Source: Flavobacterium litorale | GTDB taxonomy: Bacteria; Bacteroidota; Bacteroidia; Flavobacteriales; Flavobacteriaceae | Length of the DNA: 64,000 nucleotides | Assembly (NCBI RefSeq): GCF_019613795.1 | Contig: NZ_CP080429.1 | Coordinates: 773,501 to 837,500 of the forward strand | Direction: 5' to 3' | Shown: positions 1,035 through 63,363 of the stretch, one piece after another | Numbering within the stretch: position 1 is the stretch's first letter | How the letters are laid out: each line of letters starts with the position of its first letter | The notes under the pieces: model-generated | Told to the model about the DNA's origin: nothing | What the model saw: only the letters and a program-made list of their open reading frames with translations | The model's database searches: none | Position numbers and translations under genes: made by a program

Positions 1035-1215
1035 CCTGCAAGGTCTGTACGACCTTGTAGGTATAAAAACAAAATACATTTTAGTAAATTAGTCAGGGTA
1101 AAACCTACAAGGTTCCCAAAATCTTGTGGGCTATTATTATAGCAACCTCATCAAAAAATTTTGTTATTTATAGTATACCTACAAGATACCTACAAGGTTT
1201 TTAAAACCTTGCAGG
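1035..1215. repeat. REP-like hairpin cluster (three copies)
   Basis: Imperfect palindromes lie at 1035-1062, 1104-1130 (degenerate) and 1189-1215. The left outer arm is CCTGCAAGG, the inner arms are CCTACAAGG or its complement, and the right outer arm is CCTTGCAGG. This is the same family as the elements flanking the RAYT gene at 5714. The cluster fills the gap between the convergent lipoprotein and terC genes and could act as a bidirectional 3'-end structure. Confidence 0.9.
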
Positions 1216-4804: not shown

Positions 4805-5008
4805 CCTGCAAGGTCTTAAAGACCTTGTAGGTATTGTTAGATTATAATAGCTATCCAAACCTACAAGGTTTTGGAGTGCTTGTTTGGTTTTAATGGCTAC
4901 TAAATTGAGCCTTATGTATACCTACAAGGTTTTGAGTGCTTGTAGGTCTAAGTAGCTACCAAATTACGCCTCTTATGTATACCTACAAGGTTTTGGAAAC
5001 CTTGCAGG
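4805..5008. repeat. REP-like hairpin cluster (four copies) filling the gap 4711-5017
   Basis: Copies lie at 4805-4832, about 4860-4887 (degenerate right arm), 4921-4947 (degenerate right arm) and 4982-5008. The outermost arms are the GC type (CCTGCAAGG at the left, CCTTGCAGG at the right). The internal copies appear to be a short tandem duplication of a right-hand hairpin plus the CTTATGTATA spacer. The right edge is nine bases from the nadD stop codon. Apart from the -7 element of yqhD, nothing else is visible in this gap. Confidence 0.9.
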
Positions 5009-5017
5009 AAGAAGGTA

Positions 5018-5599
5018 TTATTTTTTATAAAACAAGTTATGGTCTATGTACGCCCATACTTTTTGGGGTAGTAAGGGTTGTACGTTTTTACCTTGTTTTA
5101 TGTTGTTTCGGATAAAGGTTGACGATATCTCTATAACAGGTGCCTCTATACGGTGTATTTTTGGGTTTGCCAGTAACGTTGCATCGGCAACGGCACTATT
5201 AATACGTGGATACACATAAATATCGTGATTGGCTAGTAGTACCTCATAATTTTTCCATTTGTGTAATGAGTTGAGATTATCTTCGCCCATTATTAACGAA
5301 AATTGGTGCATGGGGTATTTTTCTAGTAAGTGCACTAGCGTATTTACGGTATAGTTGGGTTGTGGTAGGCTAAACTCAATATCGCTGGGGCGGATGGTAT
5401 CGTAATCTTCAGTAGCAAGGTGTACCATTTGTAACCTATGGCGATCGTCCAATAAAGTGCTTTTCTTTTTGTGTGGGTTATGGGGGGTTACCACCATCCA
5501 TATTTGGTCGAGGTCAGAATGCTCTGCCATGTGGTTCGCAATAATTAAATGCCCTGCGTGTATGGGGTTAAATGTACCAAAGTAAAGCCCTATTTTCAT
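5018..5599 (-). CDS. nadD: Nicotinate-nucleotide adenylyltransferase
   Basis: The 193-residue cytosolic enzyme joins nicotinate mononucleotide and ATP to deamido-NAD in NAD biosynthesis. The nucleotidyltransferase signature GTFNPIHAGH is at residues 8-17 and the second signature ISSTFIR is at 158-164. MGEDNL near 104-109 is also typical. Length and start are normal. It is in the same direction as the RAYT gene and gmk, but separated from them by hairpin repeats. Confidence 0.95.
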   Translation of the reverse strand: MKIGLYFGTFNPIHAGHLIIANHMAEHSDLDQIWMVVTPHNPHKKKSTLLDDRHRLQMVHLATEDYDTIRPSDIEFSLPQPNYTVNTLVHLLEKYPMHQFSLIMGEDNLNSLHKWKNYEVLLANHDIYVYPRINSAVADATLLANPKIHRIEAPVIEISSTFIRNNIKQGKNVQPLLPQKVWAYIDHNLFYKK

Positions 5600-5628: not shown

Positions 5629-5710
5629 CCTGCAAGGTCTTTACGACCTTGTAGGTTTATTGGGTTAGTAGTTACAGTTAACACCTACAAGGTTTTGGAA
5701 ACCTTGCAGG
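5629..5710. repeat. REP-like hairpin pair on the 3' side of the RAYT gene
   Basis: Hairpin 1 is 5629-5656 (outer arm CCTGCAAGG, inner arm CCTTGTAGG). Hairpin 2 is 5684-5710 (inner arm CCTACAAGG, outer arm CCTTGCAGG). The spacer is 27 bases. The pair is a head-to-head inverted unit resembling a BIME. Its right edge lies three bases from the transposase stop codon. Confidence 0.93.
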
Positions 5711-5713
5711 AGA

Positions 5714-6265
5714 TTATTCTAATAAAAATTTCTCGTGTAAATCTAAATTTCTCTGTTGGTGTACAAAGATAAAATTATCTCGGTCGCCAAAATAGTTTAA
5801 TACCTCATCTCTTTTTAAAATAGTTGGTTTACTGCTCAAACACGCTTTATATGATGTGTATTTATACCGCTCAAAATCAATATTATAATGATGTTTTGGG
5901 TTAAGGTGTATATATACTATAAGTTGTTTCAAATACTCTTCGTTATGTATGGCAATCCGCTTAAAATGCTTTTCGAATAAACTCCCCGTACGATTTGTAG
6001 CTTTATTAAAAGCTTTAGCATACGCGTTAAAAAAGTTGGAAAAACTTTGTGTGACTTTTTCGGCAGGGTCATCTACACGAATAAGCAAATGAAAATGATT
6101 ATCCATTAAACAATAGGCGAAAACACTACAATGTGGTGCTACATATTTTGAGAGTAATTGTAAGAAGTAGTTTTTGTTTTCATCAGAAACAAAAATAGGG
6201 GTACTATTTATCCCTCTATTGTAAATATGATAAGTGTAACCCCGTTGTAATACCTCTAATTTCAC
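5714..6265 (-). CDS. REP-associated tyrosine transposase (RAYT, Y1_Tnp / IS200-like)
   Basis: The protein is 183 residues and belongs to the Y1 HUH transposase superfamily in its REP-associated branch. Visible features are the N-terminal YTYHIYNRGIN (10-20), the HUH metal site in YCLMDNHFHLL (51-61, His57 and His59), and the catalytic tyrosine region YLKQLIVYIHLNP (111-123, probably Tyr118). The family cleaves single-stranded REP hairpins. The start is a GTG at 6265, which gives the usual family N-terminus; no ATG fits. There are no IS-type terminal inverted repeats. Instead BIME-like hairpin pairs lie on both sides (5629-5710 and 6306-6394), as expected for a RAYT with its cognate repeats. 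The frame is intact. Confidence 0.9.
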   Translation of the reverse strand: MKLEVLQRGYTYHIYNRGINSTPIFVSDENKNYFLQLLSKYVAPHCSVFAYCLMDNHFHLLIRVDDPAEKVTQSFSNFFNAYAKAFNKATNRTGSLFEKHFKRIAIHNEEYLKQLIVYIHLNPKHHYNIDFERYKYTSYKACLSSKPTILKRDEVLNYFGDRDNFIFVHQQRNLDLHEKFLLE

Positions 6266-6305
6266 AAAAAGTACTTTTAACTATTGTACATTTTTTCGTA
6301 TATAT

Positions 6306-6394
6306 CCTGCAAGGTTCTAAAAACCTTGTAGGATTTTAATTTTATAATTCTCAATATAATCGTTAGACCTACAAGGTTTTGGAAACCTTGCAGG
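6306..6394. repeat. REP-like hairpin pair on the 5' side of the RAYT gene
   Basis: Hairpin 1 is 6306-6332 (CCTGCAAGG ... CCTTGTAGG) and hairpin 2 is 6368-6394 (CCTACAAGG ... CCTTGCAGG), with a 35-base spacer. It has the same polarity as the pair at 5629. Its right edge is nine bases from the gmk stop codon, so it may also be a 3'-end structure for gmk. It lies about 40 bases upstream of the RAYT start. Confidence 0.93.
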
Positions 6395-6403
6395 AGGGTA
6401 TTG

Positions 6404-6973
6404 TTAACGTATAAAATCCTCTACCAAATCGTGGGCTTCCTGCTTGGCAGTATCTAGGTCGTAGTTTTTAATAATAGTATCAAACTGCGGTGCGGTGGCT
6501 AACTCTACCGATGCTTTTGCAATACGCATGTTTATTTTATCGTCACTCTCGGTACTGCGCTTTTTAAGGCGAATTTTAAGCTCATCTACGCTTGGTGGCT
6601 TTACAAATACCGCCAATGTTTCTTCGGGGAATTTCTTTTTAATGCGCAGTCCGCCTGCAACATCAATATCAAAAATTACGTTTTTCCCTTTTGCCCAAAT
6701 ACGTTCTACTTCGCTTTTTAATGTGCCGTAAAAATTATCGCGGTATACCTCTTCCCACTCTACAAAATCTTCGGCTTTTATGTGTTTTTTAAACTCCTCT
6801 GTACTCATAAAGTAATAATCTTTACCATGCTGCTCTTCGCCACGAGGGCTACGGGTAGCCGCAGAGATAGAAAATTCTAGGTTAAGGTCTGCTTGCTCCA
6901 ACAGGTGCCTTACTATGGTGGTTTTACCCGAACCCGATGGTGCCGAGAATACGATGAGTTTACCTTTATTCAT
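6404..6973 (-). CDS. gmk: Guanylate kinase
   Basis: The 189-residue cytosolic enzyme phosphorylates GMP to GDP. The P-loop APSGSGKTT is at residues 11-19. The GMP-binding region includes the typical TRSPRGEEQHGKDYYF and the stretch FVEWEEVY. DIDVAGG is also characteristic. Length is normal. It is downstream of yicC on the same strand, a common pairing in bacteria. Confidence 0.95.
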   Translation of the reverse strand: MNKGKLIVFSAPSGSGKTTIVRHLLEQADLNLEFSISAATRSPRGEEQHGKDYYFMSTEEFKKHIKAEDFVEWEEVYRDNFYGTLKSEVERIWAKGKNVIFDIDVAGGLRIKKKFPEETLAVFVKPPSVDELKIRLKKRSTESDDKINMRIAKASVELATAPQFDTIIKNYDLDTAKQEAHDLVEDFIR

Positions 6974-12625: not shown

Positions 12626-12881
12626 CCTGCAAGGTCTTTGAGACCTTGTAGGTGTTTTGGAATTCCAAACTTAATTTTTAGACCTACAAGGTTTTGGAAA
12701 CCTTGCAGGTATATAATATTTAAGCCACCAAACTTTTCAGTACATTATACCTACAAGGTTTTAATCTAAAAGGTCATTTCATCTCCTGCGAGGTCTTTTT
12801 AAGACCTTGTAGGTATTCTGGAGTTCTCAAACTTAGTTAACGCTCACTTTTAAACCTACAAGGTTTTAGAAACCTTGTAGG
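12626..12881. repeat. REP-like hairpin cluster (two pairs plus a partial copy) in the gap 12606-12971
   Basis: Pair 1 is 12626-12653 with 12683-12709. A half-decayed copy lies near 12750-12775. Pair 2 is 12785-12814 with 12855-12881. Pair 1 keeps the rule that GC-type arms are outermost; the right arm of pair 2 has drifted (CCTTGTAGG). Downstream, 12898-12916 holds a remnant of the second repeat family (ACCTCCTCGTAATGA). Nothing else is visible in this gap. Confidence 0.9.
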
Positions 12882-13741: not shown

Positions 13742-13819
13742 CCTGCAAGGTTTTAAATACCTTGTAGGTTTTGCTATTGTATATTATTCATACCTACAAG
13801 GACTTAGATTCCTTGCAGG
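13742..13819. repeat. REP-like hairpin pair inside the bat operon
   Basis: Hairpins are 13742-13769 and 13793-13819 with a 23-base spacer. The right outer arm CCTTGCAGG ends two bases before the batD stop codon, and the left arm ends 23 bases before the batE start. This is an intra-operonic insertion that could alter batE expression relative to batD. Confidence 0.92.
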
Positions 13820-24125: not shown

Positions 24126-24734
24126 CCTGCAAGGTCTTTGAGACCTTGTAGGTCTGAATTGTAAGTCGGCTGTAAGAATAAATACCTACGAGGTTTTGTA
24201 AACCTCGTAGGATAAAGAGCTTCAACTGGTAATAAGTGAAATACTTACCCGTGAGAGAACTATTTGAATATAGCTAATTAAACAAGTCCTGCAAGGTCTG
24301 TAGCACCTTGTAGGTCTGAACAAAAAGCTACATATATAATTGATATAATAATAAATACCTACAAGGTTTTGTAAACCTTGTAGGATAAAGGGCTTAAACT
24401 GGTAATAAATGAAATGCTTACCCGTAAAAAGCCATTTGGATATAGCTAACTAAACAAGTCCTGCAAGGTCTGTAGCACCTTGTAGGTCTAAATTGTAAGT
24501 CGGCTGTAAGTAATAAATACCTACGAGGTTTTGTAAACCTCGCAGGATAAAGAGCTTCAATTGGTAATAAGTGAAATACTTACCCGTAAAAAGCCATTTG
24601 TATATAGCTAGCTAAACAAATCCTGTAAGGTCTGTAGTACCTTGTAGGTATGAATAAAAAGCTGTATTTATAATTGATATAATAATGAATACCTACAAGG
24701 TACTACAGACCTTACAGGATAGAGAGCTTAAATA
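24126..24734. repeat. Tandem array of four REP-like hairpin pairs (period 162-172 bp)
   Basis: Eight hairpins form four head-to-head pairs: 24126/24185, 24288/24358, 24460/24520 and 24622/24692 (start positions of left/right hairpins). Pairs recur at 162, 172 and 162 bases. Between pairs lies a conserved segment that begins ATAAAG(A/G)GCTT and contains GCTTACCCGTAAAAAG or close variants. The fourth unit ends inside the start of the gene at 24735, whose own first codons resemble the same segment. Left hairpins are nearly invariant; right hairpins show paired arm changes (ACGAGG with CCTCGT). The array fills the gap 24121-24734. Confidence 0.93.
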
Positions 24735-62645: not shown

Positions 62646-62672
62646 CCTACAAGGTTTTAAAAACCTTGTAGG
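62646..62672. repeat. Single REP-like hairpin
   Basis: CCTACAAGG and CCTTGTAGG flank a TTTTAAAAA centre, a perfect palindrome of the family without a partner hairpin. The preceding bases (ATTGCAACTATACATAGCGACA) resemble the left flank of the hairpin at 63111. Confidence 0.88.
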
Positions 62673-62701
62673 TGTGTTTGTTTTAGAATCAGAGCCTCAA
62701 C

Positions 62702-62773
62702 GTCGTTACGAGCGTAGTGGAACGGAGCGTGGCAATCTGTTGAGATTGCTTCGTCGTACCTCCTCGCAATGAC
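62702..62773. repeat. Second palindromic repeat family, copy 2
   Basis: A degenerate left half (TTACGAGCGTAGTGGAACGG, then GCGTGGCAATCTG) faces a right half AGATTGCTTCGTCGTACC with the end TCCTCGCAATGAC. It is related to the elements at 9836, 62877 and 63158. Confidence 0.85.
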
Positions 62774-62829
62774 GCTTAATCTGTAATAAGAAACAAAAGA
62801 AAGTTCGTTCAAAAATCTATCCTACAATA

Positions 62830-63083
62830 CCTACAAGGCTTTAAAAACCTTGTAGGTGTCAGTTCATAAATACAGTGTCATTGCGAGCGGAGCGCGGCAA
62901 TCCGAATTAGATTGCTTCGTCGTGCCTCCTCGCAATGACATGTGCCACAACTCCAGAAAATGCATACATTATAAAACAAAAACCCGATAGTGCACTTACA
63001 CACTATCGGGCTTACTCAAACAAACATTGGAAGTTCAGAAAATACTTAACATTAAAGCTTATATTACTTTATAATAAGCTGTC
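62830..63083. repeat. Direct duplication, copy 1 (hairpin, palindrome and terminator)
   Basis: This segment repeats at an exact offset of 281 bases: hairpin 62830 against 63111, palindrome 62877 against 63158, terminator stem 62983 against 63264, and ACATTAA near 63050 against 63331. Similarity fades after TTATAATAA, which in copy 2 is the hmuY stop region. It includes a REP-like hairpin (62830-62856) and a member of the second palindromic family (62877-62939). Confidence 0.9.
62979..63014 (-). terminator. Terminator copy 1 (duplicated)
   Basis: On the minus strand CCCGATAGTG pairs with CACTATCGGG, followed by TTTTTGTTTT. The stem is perfect, unlike copy 2. It is a spare terminator downstream of hmuY. 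Confidence 0.8.
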
Positions 63084-63110
63084 TTTTTATTGTAACTATA
63101 TATGGCAACA

Positions 63111-63363
63111 CCTGCAAGGTTTTAAAAACCTTGTAGGTATCAGTTAATAAATACGGTGTCATTGCGAGCGAAGCGTGGCAATCCGAATTAGATTGCTTCG
63201 TCGTGCCTCCTCGCAATGACACGTGCCACAACTCCAGAAAATACATAAATCATAAAATAAAAACCCGATAGTGCACTTACACACCATCGGGCTTACTCAA
63301 ACAAACATTGGAAGTTCAGAAAATACTTAACATTAAAACTTCTACTACTATCTTATAATAACT
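63111..63363. repeat. Direct duplication, copy 2, overlapping the hmuY 3' end
   Basis: The second copy of the 62830 segment includes a REP-like hairpin (63111-63138), a palindrome (63158-63220) and a terminator. It reaches the last codons of hmuY at 63353, so it is probably the ancestral copy and the segment at 62830 the derived one. Confidence 0.9.
63259..63295 (-). terminator. Intrinsic terminator of hmuY (copy 2)
   Basis: On the minus strand CCCGATGGTG pairs with CACTATCGGG with one G-T wobble, followed by TTTTTATTTT. It lies about 60 bases after the hmuY stop codon. Confidence 0.82.

Follow-up and report, generated by a model that had tools for sequence, protein, structure and literature searches.

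The window, a stretch of 64,000 nucleotides of the Flavobacterium litorale genome, contains a gene whose product is a RAYT (a TnpA_REP-like Y1/HUH protein) with, according to its structural model, Escherichia coli TnpA_REP as the closest solved fold. We read it as a single-copy, domesticated RAYT of a non-GTAG type and the hairpins around it as its cognate REPs, which it would bind, recognise by a core within the stem and spread; for this reading, proposed mechanism included, we estimate a probability of roughly 0.7 from sequence comparison. The RAYT/REP pair itself is of a known kind, and the added interest lies in a match between the hairpin core and a dipeptide of the protein and in a fusion of the RAYT to HemF.

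The RAYT gene and its flanking hairpins

The gene occupies positions 5714..6265 (minus strand) between gmk, its upstream neighbour (6404..6973, minus strand, TIGR03263), and nadD, its downstream neighbour (5018..5599, minus strand, TIGR00482). As originally predicted, the Y1/HUH reading frame is intact, encoding 183 amino acids from a GTG start with zero internal stops, and the start is credible as aligned relatives begin at the same residue. The predicted assignment of Tyr118 (codon at 5912..5914, minus strand) as catalytic residue was supported likewise, since this tyrosine is invariant in 54/54 aligned rows together with N56, H57 and H59 of the HUH motif N56-H57-F58-H59 (6089..6100, minus strand, computed from the ORF), and a Tyr is found at position 118 in 255/256 RAYT loci. 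The protein belongs to the Y1 HUH nuclease fold family with one catalytic tyrosine, its activity being predicted. Pfam PF01797 (Y1_Tnp) recognises it at 25.9 bits, barely above the cut-off of 23, and NCBIfam NF047646 (REP_Tyr_transpos) at an E-value of 2e-13 and 50.5 bits, which is below the curated cut-off of 80 and sets it apart from the TnpA_REP family model. An AlphaFold2 model based on the 54-row alignment (mean pLDDT 94) has as top PDB match 4er8, E. coli TnpA_REP bound to a REP hairpin (E 6e-8, TM 0.60/0.66), followed by the IS608 transposase 2vjv (E 3e-5), with ISDra2 also ranking behind 4er8. A search with the RAYT family profile recovers 4er8 by sequence (E 2e-5); the only match of a single-sequence PDB search was an unrelated protein at E 0.17. 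The RAYT is the single match in its own genome, and it is thus not a multi-copy insertion sequence. A phage or defence origin was considered and rejected, PHROGs and PADLOC giving no match for the window protein.

Head-to-head hairpin pairs with exact arms flank the gene on both sides as predicted, their inner ends lying 3 nt after the stop and 40 nt before the GTG. Downstream, a plus-form hairpin (CCTGCAAGG..CCTTGTAGG, with a G.T mispair; 5629..5655, plus strand) forms a REPIN-like pair with a minus-form hairpin (5684..5710, minus strand) that ends next to the RAYT stop; upstream, a plus-form hairpin (6306..6332, plus strand) is paired with a minus-form one (6368..6394, minus strand). The order within each pair is CCTGCAAGG..CCTTGTAGG, then CCTACAAGG..CCTTGCAGG, the arms of all four read CCT[A/G]CAAGG/CCTTG[C/T]AGG, and as plus-strand single-stranded DNA each hairpin folds better than 200/200 shuffles (z -4.3 to -6.7).

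The window holds 20 exact copies of the hairpin in total; if up to three arm mismatches are allowed the number rises to 28, of which 24 lie away from the RAYT. The chance level is 1 match in 20 base-shuffled windows at up to two arm mismatches. About 29 copies had been claimed elsewhere in the window; we counted 16 exact ones and 20, 23 and 24 at up to one, two and three arm mismatches, respectively, so that the earlier number was an overcount even at the most permissive threshold. Genome-wide (one contig, 2.73 Mb) 43 hairpins have exact arms, the reversed-pattern control giving 0. Most copies are polar, the plus form carrying the G.T mispair, and pairs run mostly plus then minus. Dispersed REPs, given here irrespective of strand, lie at 1035..1215 (exact copies at 1035 and 1189 and a degenerate one at 1104), 4805..5008 (exact at 4805 and 4982, degenerate between), 12626..12881 (the 12626/12683 pair and 12855), 13742..13819 (a pair), 24126..24718 (an array of eight, among which are some where a change in one arm is compensated in the other) and 62646..63137 (three REPs). 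They are intergenic, several of them in convergent gaps, with a 7-nt overlap with one predicted ORF as the exception in the window, and inverted REP pairs flanking the gene with further copies dispersed between genes are the arrangement by which RAYT/TnpA_REP systems are recognised. The array of eight was seen to sit between two co-directional genes, its paired arm changes being CCTACGAGG/CCTCGTAGG and others.

For the structure of the hairpin we used 368 distinct hairpins from the loci compared, chosen by arm pattern. Compensatory paired changes are present in 12/34 hairpins with two changed arm positions, the polarity pair being set aside, and the second loop-side pair is T-A in 137 and C-G in 46 of 191 exact copies; these changes are support and not proof, because the pattern-based selection favours intact arms. 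The polarity pair is G.T in 191/221 hairpins, and a T..T foot is found in 147/200 plus-form hairpins. The base immediately before CCTGCAAGG is T in 155 and G in 0 of 200 plus-form hairpins, which excludes a GT[AG]G foot, the 5' mark of canonical (GTAG) REPs, and GTAG occurs in these hairpins only inside the 3' arm (CCTTGTAGG). Across this set, comparison shows that stem pairing is kept through paired changes and that the G.T mispair and the T.T foot confer strand polarity.

Hairpin and RAYT clade in other genomes

We searched 199 genomes, the own one included, and found the exact-arm hairpin in 62, namely the window genome and 61/120 genus relatives; it was found in none of the 78 genomes outside the genus. 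The RAYTs of the genus that are closest to the window protein (L017-L030, 51-62% identity) are flanked by the hairpin in 14/14 cases, and the next 15 relatives (L031-L045) in 0/15 at up to two mismatches, with one match at three. Among the best 80 of 255 loci, where the nearest named relatives of the window RAYT are from Flavobacterium, the hairpin recurs beside RAYTs of Flavobacterium, Paenimyroides, Aquimarina, Polaribacter, Aequorivita, Gelidibacter and others. A quick tree of 100 RAYTs, from which eight genus loci that had not been parsed were left out, places the hairpin in 60/66 rows of one clade, starred in the tree, versus 1/34 rows outside it. Together with the fold match to 4er8 this distribution upholds the predicted reading as a RAYT with cognate REPs, here of a non-GTAG family, and comparison shows RAYT clade and hairpin family travelling together across Flavobacteriaceae, the hairpin being nearly absent outside the clade.

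The count in relatives with and without the RAYT, proposed in the original prediction as a check, spoke for it: in the genus, 14/14 genomes with an orthologue carry the hairpin (median 16 copies), compared with 46/105 without one (median 0; p 2e-8 by Mann-Whitney and 5e-5 by Fisher test, the ambiguous genome G003 being excluded). Equal hairpin numbers in close relatives that never had a RAYT had been named as evidence against the prediction, and in part this may apply, as 12 of the 105 genomes have at least ten. One genus relative without a RAYT match at E 1e-5 (G008) carries 66 exact hairpins, a large number of them arranged as tidy pairs, and nine occur in the single-contig genome G103, for which no RAYT match was recorded either. 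REP pairs were noticed in both of these genomes without a detectable RAYT of this family, those of G008 being near-identical. When 18 hemF loci were examined (17 from genomes without this RAYT and that of the window genome), six were found to keep REPs upstream of hemF, counted at up to one arm mismatch, and in the five of these that were read by eye the REPs come just after the end of hemE. We infer that REPs after hemE in RAYT-less genomes are leftovers of RAYT loss.

Retention of hairpins in some genomes without a RAYT, the intergenic location and the presence of several copies in convergent gaps are what one would expect if the hairpins were common intergenic sequences that terminate transcription in both directions or stabilise mRNA, the RAYT having merely landed among them. 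A conserved G.T mispair, a T.T foot and head-to-head pairing are, however, unexpected of terminators, and the hairpin tracks one RAYT clade while other RAYT clades have another core, which leaves this explanation very improbable.

Hairpin core and residues 99-100

Hairpins of sister clades share the frame CC[T/C]-NNNN-GG..CC-nnnn-[A/G]GG and differ in the core, which is, for example, AACA in a second Flavobacterium clade, CACA in the Gelidibacter/Bizionia group, GTCA in Flavivirga and TAAA in Anaerolineales. Searching the flanks of 256 RAYT loci from Bacteroidota and Chloroflexota (L017-L125, L213-L358 and the window) for this frame yielded 310 hairpins in 217,223 bp versus 0 in 4.34 Mb of base-shuffled flanks. 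A core was assigned at 143/256 loci, both numbers counting the window gene twice (WIN and L252) and a few others as well (e.g. L027/L067); in this flank search no framed hairpin was found at 113/256 loci, among them 7 of the 71 with KH at residues 99-100. An unbiased hairpin finder, stricter than the frame search, detected recurrent flanking hairpins at 104/256 loci, 89 of them framed and 15 unframed. Beside distant RAYTs (L315, L334, L337-L339 and others) we noticed recurrent flanking hairpins of other frames, e.g. AGACATCCAATGTC.

Residues 99-100 of the RAYT are variable inside an otherwise conserved R-x-G-x-L-F context and are K99-H100 in the window protein (codons at 5966..5971, minus strand). 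At the labelled loci KH goes with RCAA (64/64), EH with AACA (13/13), RP with GACA or GTCA (18/19), HP with TAAA or TAAG (6/6), PN with CCAA (4/4) and DR/NR with CACA or CACG (6/6), counts that include some genes fetched twice; core labels were scripted, and only in the earliest dipeptide table had up to five RCAA labels been set by hand. Loci added after the dipeptide match had first been noticed (L213-L358) comprise 43 labelled ones, 23 of which, the own genome left out, have a dipeptide that had already been labelled before. The full core agreed in 17/23 (GACA and GTCA both being accepted for RP) and the third base in 23/23, although these loci include close kin of earlier ones and are therefore not independent.

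As a control for kinship, pairs of 134 distinct proteins (the 143 minus identical ones) were sorted into bands of identity computed without residues 98-100; the locus pairs are not independent, and identity bands take the place of a phylogenetic model. At 35-40% identity, pairs with the same dipeptide have the core in common in 0/12 and the third base in 12/12 cases, compared with 4/1350 and 486/1350 for pairs with different dipeptides. The corresponding values at 40-45% identity are 37/76 and 74/76 for the same versus 11/2620 and 775/2620 for different dipeptides, at 45-50% the core is common in 231/244 same-dipeptide versus 44/1789 different-dipeptide pairs, and at 60% identity or more pairs with different dipeptides have a common core in just 9/43 cases. 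Single linkage at 50% identity gave nine clusters, too few for permutation, the sole cluster pair with the same dipeptide being that of GACA and GTCA.

The contrast between same- and different-dipeptide pairs within identity bands speaks against the alternative that RAYT and REPs are cognate but that residues 99-100 merely mark ancestry, core choice being set elsewhere in the protein. This alternative, which we consider unlikely but deserving of weight, draws on the fact that other positions are informative too. When adjacent residue pairs were ranked for predicting a common core, 99-100 came first (MCC 0.85, all rows) and residues 3-4 were the best non-overlapping pair (MCC 0.72, all rows; residue 3 alone 0.65); for the third base the lead of 99-100 is small (MCC 0.40 versus 0.36 for residue 55 alone and 0.31 for residue 99 alone). 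It is also favoured by the TT cluster, which holds one dipeptide while the first two core bases vary (GTCA, TTCA, ATCA and AACA, with the terminal CA alone common). With the RCAA rows removed, however, 99-100 still rank first (MCC 0.53), the best non-overlapping pair reaching 0.12 and residues 3-4 falling outside the top ten (at most 0.08), and the four GTCA/RP rows do not group together in the tree but form two sets apart from each other, L082/L109 and L092/L114. The dipeptides KP, ER and KN are each split over different cores, and such splits together with the 0/12 at 35-40% identity indicate that the dipeptide does not fix all four core bases. A per-base code leading from dipeptide to core was sought by eye, and none is claimed.

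The aligned position of the dipeptide also argues against a mere marker of ancestry. In the alignment with 4er8, from which the numbering was counted, F97-E98-K99-H100 stand opposite W94-Q95-P96-R97, so that K99-H100 are aligned to P96-R97 and lie beside W94-Q95. The GTAG-recognition region of TnpA_REP includes W94, Q95, E100, H101 and R104 and is described as not conserved in subclass 2.6 in the available text of PMC6006769. Comparison shows the core to follow residues 99-100. In the alignment these stand next to the residues with which E. coli TnpA_REP reads GTAG, so that the variable core is probably the counterpart of GTAG. Our literature search, which did not extend to subscription papers and preprints, found no report of frame-plus-core hairpins or of the dipeptide match.

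Gene sites, HemF fusion and proposed mechanism

Among the best 80 of 255 loci the commonest site of the RAYT is hemE, which it directly follows in 19/80 named loci; it was also found between hemD and hemE, next to hemA/hemH and ahead of fumarase, neighbour families being named from one scanned member each. The site changes at least ten times across 54 located rows of the tree (L052 placed by its upstream neighbour alone). The window copy occupies the gap between gmk and nadD, two genes that are adjacent in 29/29 genus relatives compared (of 57 with a nadD match), and no REP lies between them in any of those 29. This gap measures 434-517 nt in L158, L159, L165, L167, L169 and L175, and on visual inspection a small ORF, of a single family, appears to be present there in several Flavobacterium genomes. 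The repeated changes of neighbourhood and the occupation of a gap that is REP-free in relatives would suit an autonomous, insertion-sequence-like mobile element made up of the gene and its outer hairpins, with the dispersed pairs as deletion derivatives, as would the plus REP upstream and minus REP downstream of the gene in many orthologues. Since the window genome has one copy and any relative at most four matches, several of them fragments, we regard such an element as quite improbable and prefer the single-copy, domesticated RAYT.

The REPs of the window genome crowd around the RAYT. Counting exact copies merged within 1 kb as one locus and excluding the RAYT's own, 19/20 REP loci lie within 350 kb of the gene, where about five are expected (KS p 1e-10), and 20/22 do so if copies with one mismatch are added. 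The crowd spans 436-1042 kb of the contig, probably in the middle of a replication arm as dnaA is located at 0.4 kb; its centre is best placed at 720 kb, the RAYT itself being located at 779 kb, and 3% of positions are equally central. Crowding as a general rule was rejected, none being seen in the single-contig genomes G022 (p 0.35) and G042 (p 0.46; 0.13 and 0.42 in an earlier run), both of which have the gene. The composition of the REP-rich arm is a GC content of 0.390 in eight stretches inside versus 0.366 in 12 outside (tetranucleotide p 0.021). Local spread from a recently moved RAYT and a segment with its own history would both fit the crowding.

Many Flavobacteriaceae of marine origin have a RAYT that continues in frame into coproporphyrinogen III oxidase (HemF), as seen in 12/80 named loci among the best 80 of 255 (L088, L090, L092, L095-L098, L103-L105, L110 and L114), resulting in proteins of 490-577 amino acids. 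PF01218 was detected in the seven fusions scanned with E-values of 7e-133 to 2e-135, and the HemF part is the only full HemF match in 12/12 fusion genomes, one of which has an extra short fragment. An in-frame REP with RCAA core, counted at up to one arm mismatch, forms part of the linker in 5/12 fusions, and in L092 a GTCA-type hairpin is found there. A protein search with one fusion gave at least 120 matches, all but four of those listed spanning the whole query. Of the 120, 118 have the HUH pattern and 114 the Tyr pattern, and a REP-like linker peptide is present in 56; the HemF start is recognisable in 117, and in 65 of them none of the five residues preceding it is Met. One fusion was modelled, with lower overall confidence (mean pLDDT 75, pTM 0.52), as two folded halves joined by a loose linker (residues 182-223, pLDDT below 50). 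Exact plus-form REPs number four to 36 in six of the 12 fusion genomes, one in two and none in four, the lone REP of the two being by position the copy beside the gene itself. All 12 fusions form one side of a branch with a support of 52 only in the quick tree, so that a single origin is the simplest count and not shown. Unexpectedly long TnpA_REP proteins, taken as fusions or annotation errors, were discarded in an earlier survey, as far as its available text goes (PMC6006769). Some JGI entries bear the automatic name 'coproporphyrinogen III oxidase/REP element-mobilizing transposase RayT', indicating that annotation pipelines have seen the architecture; no report of a RAYT-HemF fusion was found in the literature search, subscription papers and preprints being outside its scope.

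IS608 and ISDra2 TnpA are insertion-sequence transposases. The window RAYT has the Y1/HUH fold in common with these IS200/IS605 proteins, but here one gene is accompanied by dispersed hairpins. The REPs of Pseudomonas REPIN/RAYT systems are of a different type from those of the window. Inverted REP pairs as the dispersed unit and a single-copy, vertically inherited RAYT, as portrayed in the available text of PMC8049555, are found here as well, whereas the fusion of one RAYT branch to a heme enzyme distinguishes our family from those systems. E. coli TnpA_REP with its GTAG-tagged REPs (4er8) resembles the window system in fold, HUH motif with one tyrosine, inverted REP pairs flanking the gene and a stem mispair, which E. 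coli REPs also need (a bulge; available text of PMC8266576). Unlike there, the window hairpins have no 5' GT[AG]G foot, the protein has F97-E98 in place of W94-Q95, and a variable four-base core lies within the stem. Another closely similar described group is TnpA_REP subclass 2.6 of Bacteroidetes, with proteins of 179 amino acids, 'atypical secondary structures' and copies elsewhere in the genome (PMC6006769). Taxon, length (179 versus 183 amino acids), non-GTAG hairpins flanking the gene and dispersed copies agree with the window family, but the subclass motifs NH[LIV]H, WQ and YIH[QN]NP are replaced by NHFH, FE and YIHLNP; we compared the two by the description, whose available text gives no hairpin frame or core match. 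PMC6006769 was also the only paper found on TnpA_REP and palindromes in Bacteroidetes, and nothing was found on REP-associated tyrosine transposases in Flavobacterium or on RAYT/REP specificity in Bacteroidetes, within a search that left subscription papers and preprints aside.

We propose that the RAYT acts on single-stranded DNA, probably at the replication fork, by binding the plus-form hairpin, whose T.T foot and G.T mispair would tell it the strand. The loop F97-R103 would read the core, K99-H100 favouring GCAA, and H57, H59 and Y118 would nick beside the hairpin and join ends, so that head-to-head pairs (REPINs) may spread into intergenic DNA. A joint change of dipeptide and core would found a separate new REP family. 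A bolder reading, to which we give slightly less than even odds, is that residues 99-100 are a swappable two-residue reading head that chooses the core in a fixed frame, REP families in Bacteroidota and Chloroflexota arising by joint dipeptide/core change, and that in one large branch the RAYT has been firmly joined to an essential heme enzyme, its own REP being translated as the linker in some cases.

These results bear on the choice of REPs by TnpA_REP proteins that lack the GTAG system and on the origin of new REP families. Frame-plus-core hairpins with a matching dipeptide reduce the choice of REPs to a simple swap question on one small protein, and local spread of REPs from their RAYT, should it occur in this genome, would inform how REPs move. 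The RAYT-HemF fusion, finally, is a route by which a transposase can get tied to an essential gene and thereby be kept.
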